DNA of 64,000 nucleotides from contig MU004246.1 in assembly GCA_010405405.1 (NCBI GenBank), positions 310,001-374,000 of the forward strand, given 5' to 3'. Below, one piece after another: positions 57,819 through 60,844 of the stretch; position 1 is the first letter of the stretch, and the number at the start of each line of letters is the position of its first letter. The stretch comes from Microthyrium microscopicum. Taxonomy: Eukaryota; Ascomycota; Dothideomycetes; Microthyriales; Microthyriaceae. The notes under the pieces are model-generated. The model was not told the DNA's origin and did no database searches. It saw only the letters and a list, made by a program, of their open reading frames with translations. Made by a program: the position numbers and the translations under genes.

Positions 57819-58305
57819 ATGGCGCCTACTCCGACCTCAGATGAGGAATTTCAGGTCCTCGATGCTGCCTTAACCAGACTGAACACCTACTCAAAACTTT
57901 TATATCCAGAAAGCGATATCGCCAAACTCACAAACGACATCCATAGCATAAGGTTCATGGTGACCGTATGCATGGTTGCCATCGTATGCCTAGCTTTAAT
58001 ACTTCTCGGTTTTGTATGTAGCATATTTGAGGTAAATATAAGGCTCTCCTTAAGGCTTACATGATGATATCGTCAACTAATCGAGTCGAAATATAGCCTG
58101 GTGATGATCATCAGTCTCGAATGAGACCTTATTATGCAGACAAGCTTGCAAAGCACTCTTCACAGGTAGTAGGCATCGGACGTATTCGAACTTTCGTCTC
58201 ACTAAACCCTTTCAGATGAACGATCAGCCAAAAGAGCTGGAGAACAACGGTCAGCCGCCGACTTATTCGAATGCTGTATGCCATACGGCTCCAAAACAAG
58301 ATTGA
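57819..58305 (+). CDS. small single-pass membrane protein with C-terminal PPxY (copy 1)
   Basis: Exons are 57819-58031, 58097-58165 and 58216-58305, with introns of 65 and 50 nt, all phase 0, giving 123 residues. The N-terminus is MAPTPTSDEEFQVLDAALTR then LNTYSKLLYP, shared with copy 2. One membrane segment lies at about 46-67 (FMVTVCMVAIVCLALILLGF). After a short tail comes NGQPPTYSNAV with PPTY at 108-111, a PPxY motif. No signal peptide is present, so the tail could face either side; for WW binding it should be cytosolic. Unknown family. A 150-bp upstream stretch (gtgcagaatctgaaagtcga) is similar to that before copy 2, so gene and promoter duplicated together. Confidence 0.66.
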
Positions 58306-58363
58306 AGTCAAATCACTGGCTAGTGGCCAGCCAGACAAAAGGGCAGATATCCTTGTGGGATAT

Positions 58364-58575
58364 CAACTAAAGGACAAAATGACCGGCGTGCCCCCATCGA
58401 CTTTAAGGCTCCCATCTGCCACGCTTTGTTATCGAGTGCTTTATCACGCAAGGACTACGTTTATTCCACCACTATCAAATAATTGTGATGGGAATTATAG
58501 TATTTGCTGTTTAGAAGCGTTGGTAAGAGCCATTGGAGTTGATTAGGTCATGCCAGTTAGTTTGTCCACCTGTTG
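58364..58575 (+). mobile_element. 213-bp-family MITE, copy H
   Basis: Starts caactaaaggacaaaatgac and ends gttagtttgtccacctgttg, 58 bp after the stop of PPxY gene copy 1 and 360 bp before the ATG of copy 2. Length 212 bp. Closely matches copy E read in reverse. No clear target duplication. Confidence 0.84.
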
Positions 58576-58758
58576 GACGTGAGAAGCGAATTTCAGCAAT
58601 TAGCTAGGACCGATACATACATCTCCTACAATCTTCTAAAGCCTTGGATCCAGTTTTCTACCTAAATATTCTCTTAGCTTAACATCTGTATCATCGCCAA
58701 GCGGTACAGAATCTAGAGTGGACCACAAGTTGGTCTTGAATGCACCCAAGGCACTAAA

Positions 58759-58765
58759 TATAAAA
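58759..58765 (+). promoter_or_regulatory. TATA box of PPxY gene copy 2
   Basis: TATAAAA lies about 170 bp upstream of the ATG at 58936. Confidence 0.4.
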
Positions 58766-58935
58766 GCATGTCCTCCACCGATTATATCTCATGCTGAATT
58801 CGAACAAAGTACTTGAACTGTCCCAATCAAAAATCCAGTCGCCCAAAAAGCACTCAATCATTTCATGTACCACGCTCAAATAGAGACGTCAACACTCCCA
58901 CATACCACACGAACAGAGCCAATACAATCGTTAAG

Positions 58936-59512
58936 ATGGCACCAACTCCAACCTCAGATTCAGACTTCCAGGCTCTCGACGCCGCCCTCGAGAAACTAAA
59001 CACCTACTCAAAGCTCCTACAACCAAACAATGCCTCCGTACCCCCCAATATGGCCGAGTTCGCCAAAAGTCTATTTGTCATAAAAGTCATCGCCATTATA
59101 TGTCTTGTTGGCATTATCATCATGTACTTCACGCAGTGTTGTGTGAGTGGTAGCCTAACTTCGGTACGGATCCAGTTCTTCTTTTATAATTGCTTTGGTC
59201 TTATATTGCTTTCGTATACTGATGTCTCAAACTATTAGGCCAAGAAAACGGCGAAGGAAGCGGCAAATGCAGCGAGGCAAGCGAAGGATGCATCGGAACG
59301 TGTAGAGAGGCAGATTAAAGCGCATCTGGCGAGTTTGAACAAGGCTGCGAATGTGTCTGACACAACAACAACAACGACAACTGCGCAGGTTAGTTTCTTT
59401 TGATGAGATGTAGTACTCTGGCTAATTTTCCATTTGCAAGACAAGCAGTGAGCCCAAAGATGTCAACAATGAGCCGCCAACGTACTCGAATGTTGTGCAG
59501 ACTGCCGATTAG
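58936..59512 (+). CDS. small single-pass membrane protein with C-terminal PPxY (copy 2)
   Basis: Exons are 58936-59142, 59239-59388 and 59441-59512, with introns of 96 and 52 nt, all phase 0, giving 142 residues. The N-terminus MAPTPTSDSDFQALDAALEK then LNTYSKLLQP is nearly identical to copy 1. The membrane segment lies at about 48-66 (VIKVIAIICLVGIIIMYF), followed by TQCC. The middle exon adds a highly charged Ala/Lys/Glu helix (AKKTAKEAANAARQAKDASE), then a Thr run. The last exon encodes EPPTYSNVVQTAD with PPTY at 131-134. An in-frame ATG further upstream (58813 region) is not conserved and was not used. MITE copy I starts 4 bp after the stop codon. Confidence 0.68.
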
Positions 59513-59516
59513 CTAC

Positions 59517-59729
59517 CAACAGCTCCGCAAAAGGAATCGCACGCTCCCATCAGCCTCGTTGGCTCCCAGGTGCTACGCTATTTCATCGAATGCCTTATCT
59601 GCCATCCTTGCCGTCCAAAATCAAATGATTTATGGATTACAATGTGAGATATAGCACCTTTTCCTTAACAGCGTTGGTAGCAGCCATCAGAGTTGATGGG
59701 AGATCGCCATTTAATTTGCCATGCTGTTG
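59517..59729 (+). mobile_element. 213-bp MITE, copy I
   Basis: Starts caacagctccgcaaaaggaa and ends ttaatttgccatgctgttg, exactly 213 bp. It directly abuts the 3' end of PPxY gene 2, so it probably lies within that gene's transcribed 3' region. The flanks agctac and gctgct are at best a worn duplication. Confidence 0.83.
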
Positions 59730-60416
59730 GCTGCTATCACGATGAATGAGCTGAAGTTGGCAGGGGACCTAACAGCTGGGTTTTGATGCCAAGGCTGCTG
59801 GTAGAGATGTCGTGGAATGTATGGTACTCTAGCGTAATTAGGGAGCATTAGAAAGATCAAGATAGATCAGCTCTAGTGGTATTGCTATGGACTTGCAGAT
59901 TGTTAGTTTTATACACGCCACTGAACTCAAATTACTTCAACTCTTCCTCTGAAACTCTGACCGATATAAGCATCACAGTACCGGTAGTGGATAAAAAGCA
60001 GCATAGGTAATGAAGAATGCTATTTGCAGTCCGGTCAATTTACCTCTACCGTATGCCTCATGATCAACATGGCGACCTGGCTCGCCTACAAGGCTACAAC
60101 CATGCTTTGGTTGATCAAGAGTTTTAAATCTTGGCAAGTCCTTCGATGTGGGATCAATACCATGAACTAAGCTGCCAATATGTGGGCGACTATTGTTATT
60201 TGGCTCGAATGCATCACTATACCACAATACACAGCTTCGAGCAATGGATACTCCAGTTTTTAACAGCACGTGCGTTTTGACACTTTGCATTTGAAGCCAG
60301 AAAGCTCTGAATTTCGTTGACCATCAATCTGTGTAAATTGCAAGCTCCATACTCGTTCATCATCCCTCGACGCATGCCACAATCGCATTGTAAAGACCTA
60401 ATAACCAGGAACAACC
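59730..60416. other. upstream region of PPxY gene copy 3
   Basis: No gene was recognised in about 690 bp following MITE copy I. It should contain the promoter of the third paralog. Confidence 0.4.
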
Positions 60417-60844
60417 ATGGCGCCTATCGCCATCGATCCAGCAACCACGACAATCGTGAAAGACGCCGTACAGAAAGTCGTGCACAGGACAGTCATGGTC
60501 ATTGATGCAGATTCACCCGTCAAACTACCGAAAGATATATATTGGGGGCTCGCCTTCATTTTCGTGCTACTTTTCGTTCTAGTCGTGATGGTAGGCTCAG
60601 GAAAAGAGAGCCCCAAAGAAGTAAGCTGAACTTGGCTATGTGTCCTAAATGCTTTTACTGACGACATGGCCAGAGAAAAGCAAGAATCGAATCAGACAAG
60701 ATCAAGTTGGAGGATGTTCGAGCAAATACTGCAGCACTCGAGGCCAACACGGCAGCACGAAAGGCTTATAAAGACACACCCAACATGCCTTCCAGTCTTC
60801 CTCCATGCTATTCCGCTGCACCATTTGGTACCTGCGTAGGTTAG
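60417..60844 (+). CDS. small single-pass membrane protein with C-terminal PPxY (copy 3)
   Basis: Exons are 60417-60620 and 60674-60844; the 53-nt intron has a GTAAGC donor and a GGCCAG acceptor. The product has 124 residues. MAPIAIDPATTTIVKDAVQK opens the protein. The membrane segment lies at about 42-62 (IYWGLAFIFVLLFVLVVMVG). A charged helix follows (RKARIESDKIKLEDV, then ALEANTAARKAY). The tail has SLPPCYSAAP with PPCY at 111-114. It is much more diverged than copies 1 and 2 but keeps the same architecture: short acidic head, one span, Lys/Ala/Glu helix, PPxY near the end. The first intron falls after the membrane span as in the others. Confidence 0.62.

Follow-up and report, generated by a model that had tools for sequence, protein, structure and literature searches.

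The window analysed was the 64,000-nucleotide stretch C17:310001-374000 of Microthyrium microscopicum, a Dothideomycete of the order Microthyriales, and genome searches covered its 36.9 Mb assembly (20 contigs). Three neighbouring genes on the forward strand were modelled with GT-AG introns:

57819..58305, + strand: gene 1, ATG at 57819; exons 57819-58031, 58097-58165 and 58216-58305; 123 aa; intron phases 0 and 0
57879..57902, + strand: LNTYSKLL of gene 1 (residues 21-28)
58255..58272, + strand: PPTYSN of gene 1
58936..59512, + strand: gene 2, ATG at 58936; exons 58936-59142, 59239-59388 and 59441-59512; 142 aa; exactly the deposited hypothetical protein BT63DRAFT_484417
58996..59019, + strand: LNTYSKLL of gene 2 (residues 21-28)
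59474..59491, + strand: PPTYSN of gene 2
60417..60844, + strand: gene 3, ATG at 60417; exons 60417-60620 and 60674-60844; 124 aa; exactly the deposited hypothetical protein BT63DRAFT_461455
60800..60811, + strand: PPCY of gene 3

The first-pass annotation had described three spliced genes of 123, 142 and 124 residues with one membrane span each, and the exon models and hydrophobicity agreed with it: a single hydrophobic span was found per protein, with the best 19-residue windows at residues 48-66 (gene 1), 45-63 (gene 2) and 41-59 (gene 3). The motifs that it had placed near the C-termini were found as PPTY at residue 108 of gene 1, PPTY at residue 131 of gene 2, and PPCY at residue 111 of gene 3. 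That the three genes exist is shown, and so is the arrangement of exons in genes 2 and 3.

When gene 2 was used as the tblastn query, gene 1 was matched with an E value of 4.5e-11, and a further copy with 1.8e-9:

C17:295029-295525, - strand: copy 4, outside the window, 72 kb away; homology-based model of 127 aa with two phase-0 introns

The genome searches scored the best candidates, and gene 1 was left out as a genome query. At E<=1, gene 2 gave eight matches (genes 1 and 2, copy 4 at C17:295313-295525(-), and three weak ones elsewhere), and at E<=10 copy 4 gave six, all within genes 1, 2 and copy 4. The weak matches of gene 2, at C3, C9 and C8, all start no earlier than residue 47 of the query and were set aside. 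The models of genes 1, 2 and copy 4 have two introns in the same order, all in phase 0, and the modelled copy 4 tail, TSDQSKESENGSQPPTYSNVLQRNG, ends in PPTYSN. Judged by sequence similarity, genes 1, 2 and copy 4 are a small paralogous family of predicted single-span membrane proteins.

For gene 1 and copy 4, the splicing modelled here is putative. The deposited gene 1 protein has 84 aa, keeps PPTY, and has most of the span spliced out; by coordinate arithmetic, it implies a single intron at 57984-58215. An alternative exon 2 of gene 1 (58115-58165, acceptor at 58114) would remain in the same frame and give 117 aa by the same arithmetic. The three-exon form is backed by copy 4, and the exon 1 donor GTAAATATAA is common to both and is used in the deposited copy 4 model too. 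That deposited protein (155 aa) appears to use a second donor four bases further on, with PPTY out of frame, and the tandem donors GTAGGTAG, four bases apart in copy 4 intron 2 (L004 reverse complement 1867-1919), decide the frame of PPTY. The in-frame reading is favoured because copy 4 is 73% similar to gene 1 over 150 positions, from exon 2 to exon 3.

Sequence preceding the genes contained a shared element and several repeats:

57631..57697, + strand: upstream element of gene 1, common to copy 4 (75% over 67 bases) and gene 2
58667..58739, + strand: upstream element of gene 2, common to copy 4 (80% over 74 aligned positions)
57319..57523, unstranded: inverted-repeat (MITE-like) element of about 205 bp, upstream of gene 1
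about 58375-58576 and 59528-59729: related MITE-like stretches, between the PPxY genes

The upstream element holds GTCGACCAC at gene 1, and GTGGACCAC at gene 2 and copy 4. Before gene 3, blastn gave no same-orientation upstream element; its matches there were to repeats, apart from one of 19 bases in inverted orientation. A genome-wide search with the 96-base upstream stretch found only itself and is too insensitive to indicate uniqueness, because it missed similar sequence that blastn shows upstream of gene 1 and of copy 4. The MITE-like family (about 210 bp, inverted ends) has further copies in the window at 18033-18245, 16934-17123 and other positions, and its genome search gave at least 100 matches from the best 40 of 114 candidates. 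A repeat end was also seen at 61778-61827, apparently in an intron of a cutinase gene (putative start 61625; PF01083 on 61919-62413). Upstream of copy 4, a short frame, MSPLPATGAEFQALEEAVKNFTT (L004 2218-2355 (-)), resembles the family N-terminal block; neither a span nor a PPxY was found downstream of it, and it may be another copy in decay.

The first 30 residues of genes 1, 2 and copy 4 include 22 identical ones, and PPTYSN is identical as well. The first 30 codons gave dN/dS values of 0.13, 0.15 and 0.19 across the three pairs. In PPTYSN, dN was 0, with silent changes in four of the six codons; four silent changes out of four correspond to p of about 0.005 in a block chosen after the fact. 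For the middle of the proteins, where the alignment is many-gapped and uncertain, dN and dN/dS were 0.43 and 0.78 (gene 1/copy 4), 1.04 and 0.57 (gene 2/copy 4), and 0.93 and 0.34 (gene 1/gene 2). The ungapped span segment compared between gene 1 and copy 4 had dN/dS of 0.59, and its contrast with the N-terminus is marginal when taken alone (Fisher p 0.06). Replacement-free six-codon windows were found, in the two ungapped blocks tested, only at LNTYSKLL (three) and PPTYSN (one). Whether PPxY is the most conserved part had been posed as a check; PPTYSN is invariant, but LNTYSKLL is equally invariant in the three copies. These codon comparisons support selection on both the N-terminal block and PPTYSN, with a middle that diverges faster. 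Maintenance of PPxY by selection, also proposed before, is upheld for genes 1, 2 and copy 4 by the zero dN and the four silent codons, and its argument from gene 3 fails in its present form.

Chance occurrence of the motif was estimated by shuffling the last 20 or 30 residues, which gave PPxY in 0.2-4.4% of shuffles, depending on the protein, with the largest shares in gene 3 (3.0 and 4.4%) and with genes 1 and 2 being non-independent draws. With residue frequencies that we take to be 6% P and 2.7% Y, the expectation for the last 25 residues is 0.2%. Genome-wide, the PPTY DNA pattern was unenriched (319 sites vs 591 for the reversed control), as was the PPxY-x-N pattern (53 vs 69 for the control).

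Gene 3 gave no tblastn match to genes 1, 2 or copy 4. In hhalign, only 10 columns around PPxYS were aligned with the others (probability 2.7%, P 0.017), and a forced alignment with gene 2 gave 21%. Its layout comprises one span and a phase-0 intron just after it, the second intron being absent; a phase-0 first intron after the span and a PPxY tail are common to genes 1, 2, 3 and copy 4. The protein begins with MAPI, as copy 4 does, and has a predicted helix at residues 8-26, a span core at 41-62, and the PPxY tyrosine 10 residues from its end. The trio had been presented as one family, which holds for the paralogous genes 1 and 2 and for the layout common to all, and falls short for gene 3 at the level of tblastn and hhalign. 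It had also been argued that retention of PPxY in a strongly diverged third copy suggests selection; this argument does not hold in its present form because the homology of gene 3 is unsupported and its proline-rich tail yields PPxY in the above share of shuffles.

There is an even chance that gene 3 is an unrelated neighbour whose PPCY arose by chance in a proline-rich tail, so that genes 1 and 2 alone belong together. The shuffles, the tblastn and hhalign results, and the blastn result upstream of gene 3 all point that way, and kinship is favoured by its position next to the others in the same strand and order, the MAPI start, the placement of helix, span core, phase-0 intron and PPxY tyrosine, and the P value of the short hhalign match. 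Gene 3, having the same build, may be a diverged or convergent member. These odds are separate from those given below for the mechanism, and the two are not additive.

PPxY tails occur on other proteins of the window:

16270-16718, - strand: Pmp3-domain gene (PF01679, 78.4 bits), tail ending PPPGYGTV
29511-30198, - strand: two-span protein ending PPPPAYTPMVPKATTKR; splice 99% identical to deposited BT63DRAFT_461444

A six-frame scan of the window gave 11 PPxY words lying no more than 30 codons from a stop, one of them an artefact (PP-stop-Y); five of the remaining 10 belong to genes 1-3 and the two genes just listed. By analogy with yeast Sna3, the Pmp3-domain gene likely encodes an Rsp5 ligand. 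For the two-span protein, Pfam gave no match at E<=0.001, and beyond the deposited protein no relative of it was found. Because two other membrane proteins of the window end in PPxY, the motif by itself is nothing unusual; small membrane proteins with such a tail are not rare here, and genes 1, 2 and copy 4 make up a new group by sequence, of a kind already known. Another PPxY word, at 46355(+), falls in a frame that has hydrophobic segments and is closely followed by a repeat and a HET gene. Within 45575-48412 (+), the HET-domain frame (PF06985, 112.8 bits) is preceded by this frame, which ends in LPPTYLPTM, and the repeat piece from 46381 that separates the two may interrupt one gene or lie in an intron.

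In Pfam scans, none of the proteins of genes 1, 2, 3 and copy 4 scored over any family cut-off, and the lines for AnfO_nitrog, Peptidase_S49_N, DUF3894 and others were below curated cut-offs and were taken as span or coiled-coil noise. Pmp3 proteins, Sna3 among them, have two spans, in contrast to the one span found here, and Bsd2 is multi-span. Pmp3 membership was rejected, as the scans gave no Pmp3 line for these proteins; the real Pmp3 gene of the window does match the family. Sna3 (Pmp3 family) is nevertheless like them: it is small, sits in the membrane, and binds Rsp5 through a PPxY at its C-terminus (in excerpts of PMC2171029). Bsd2, Tre1/2, Ear1 and Ssh4 are comparable by description, as PY-motif membrane proteins that steer Rsp5; according to excerpts of PMC2810449, Ear1 and Ssh4 carry SPRY domains, and Pfam scans gave none in our proteins.

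The RCR family (PF12273; yeast Rcr1/Rcr2) resembles them in short length, one span, and PY motifs in the tail, and one span with a PPxY tail, an RCR-type feature, is found in our proteins. Membership was nonetheless rejected: in Pfam scans extended to E<=10 with the HMMER filters on, none of the four proteins had an RCR line. An hhalign comparison with the RCR protein of this genome aligned five columns around PPxY (probability 0.5%), and separate RCR matches are present in the fungus at C4:758619 and C1:3907755. Drosophila Commissureless, PRRG, Shisa and CYYR are likewise short single-span proteins with PPxY or LPxY motifs, and Comm, which has PPCY, and PRRG4 change where Robo receptors go (excerpts of PMC5578492). 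These are animal families, several with outer domains of their own, and the likeness is one of build only.

A profile of genes 1, 2 and copy 4 retrieved three proteins among 349 candidates, all from M. microscopicum, and a gene 3 profile retrieved only itself among 17. A yardstick search with another small membrane protein of the window likewise found only itself among 33, so the absence of relatives may be due to how isolated this species stands and to the search being word-based, and not to a recent origin. The statement that no description of the family was known is uncontradicted by these searches, and no text on these genes was found by species name or locus prefix.

A docking partner for the motif exists in the genome: at C2:2638711-2640603(-), a 419-residue frame containing three WW domains adjoins HECT stretches on the same strand, and on these two features the ligase is assigned as Rsp5-type; a partner of this Rsp5/Nedd4 kind had been invoked by the first-pass annotation. 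The genes are best read as encoding a small, unnamed group of membrane proteins that dock to Rsp5, either as adaptors or as clients. We tentatively place adaptor-type action of genes 1, 2 and copy 4 at somewhat under an even chance. In such a scheme, with the N-terminal block ending in LNTYSKLL and the tail ending in PPTYSN held by selection and the span and linker less constrained, the cytosolic tail would bind the WW domains of the Rsp5-type ligase, the protein would bring the ligase to a membrane, and the ligase would most likely mark a partner recognised through the N-terminal part or through the span. In yeast, surface transporters are controlled by one ligase, Rsp5, and many PY-motif adaptors, and the membrane adaptors named in excerpts are Bsd2, Tre1/2, Ear1, Ssh4 and possibly Rcr1/2 (PMC2810449). 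Rcr1 binds Rsp5 via cytoplasmic PY motifs, with VPEY as the main site and PPSY helping; as its role in chitin is described in excerpts as Rsp5-independent, PPxY is no proof of Rsp5-dependent action (PMC5578492).

The main rival, which we consider rather unlikely, holds that the proteins are clients, with PPTY allowing Rsp5 to ubiquitylate and sort the protein itself. Yeast Sna3 provides the precedent, since its C-terminal PPAY is needed for Rsp5 binding and endosomal sorting, and excerpts leave open whether Sna3 is also an adaptor (PMC2171029). The Pmp3-domain gene ending in PPPGYGTV lies in the same window and fits this reading too. Against it, the N-terminal block is held as strongly as PPxY, which suggests a second partner beyond a sorting tag. 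The adaptor and client readings share the docking step.

Docking depends on the side of the membrane on which the tail lies. Charge bias was calculated from K+R and D+E in the 15 residues on each side of the span. The net charge was 0 on the N side and +4 on the C side for gene 2, and -1 and +2 for gene 3, so a cytosolic tail is favoured in both. The counts (K+R, D+E) for gene 1 were (2,3) on both sides, which is neutral, and those for copy 4 were (2,1) on the N side and (2,4) on the C side, which leans tail-out. AlphaFold2 in single-sequence mode predicted, with low confidence, helices at residues 8-27 and 37-108 of gene 2 (mean pLDDT 67.8) and at 8-26, 39-60 and 78-100 of gene 3 (mean pLDDT 59.2), each followed by an unstructured tail. 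In the adaptor reading, the PPTY tail would most likely lie in the cytosol.

It is improbable, in our estimate, that the tail is outside or lumenal, or that the gene 1 span is spliced out, in which case PPTY would meet no WW domains at the membrane and the conserved ends would serve something else. The copy 4 and gene 1 charges speak for this, as do the deposited models of gene 1 (span mostly lost) and copy 4 (PPTY out of frame). The fully conserved N-terminal YSKL also fits a YxxPhi sorting signal; to act as one, it would require the N-terminus to be cytosolic in place of the tail. The C-side charges of genes 2 and 3 speak against it, together with the donor GTAAATATAA shared by gene 1 and copy 4 and the in-frame copy 4 donor GTAGGT, which is presumably nearer the fungal consensus than the donor implied by the deposited protein. 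Least probable is binding to WW proteins other than Rsp5, with the proteins as membrane scaffolds for another process: the genome search gave 14 WW matches at E<=0.01, of which 13 exceeded the cut-off and only three lie in the Rsp5-type frame, but the fungal PPxY membrane proteins named in excerpts act with Rsp5 (PMC2810449).

The adaptor reading can be extended to a bolder form that we regard as unlikely, in which the proteins would be lineage-restricted adaptors with two fixed ends, a partner-reading LNTYSKLL and an Rsp5-docking PPTYSN; span and linker would vary so that copies reach different membranes or targets, and gene 3 would be far diverged or convergent on the same plan. Should the proteins act solely as clients, or should gene 3 prove unrelated, the genes would be an ordinary small orphan family. 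If the extended form is true, an adaptor set that changes fast while its two ends stay fixed would offer a simple natural case of new ligase targeting arising.
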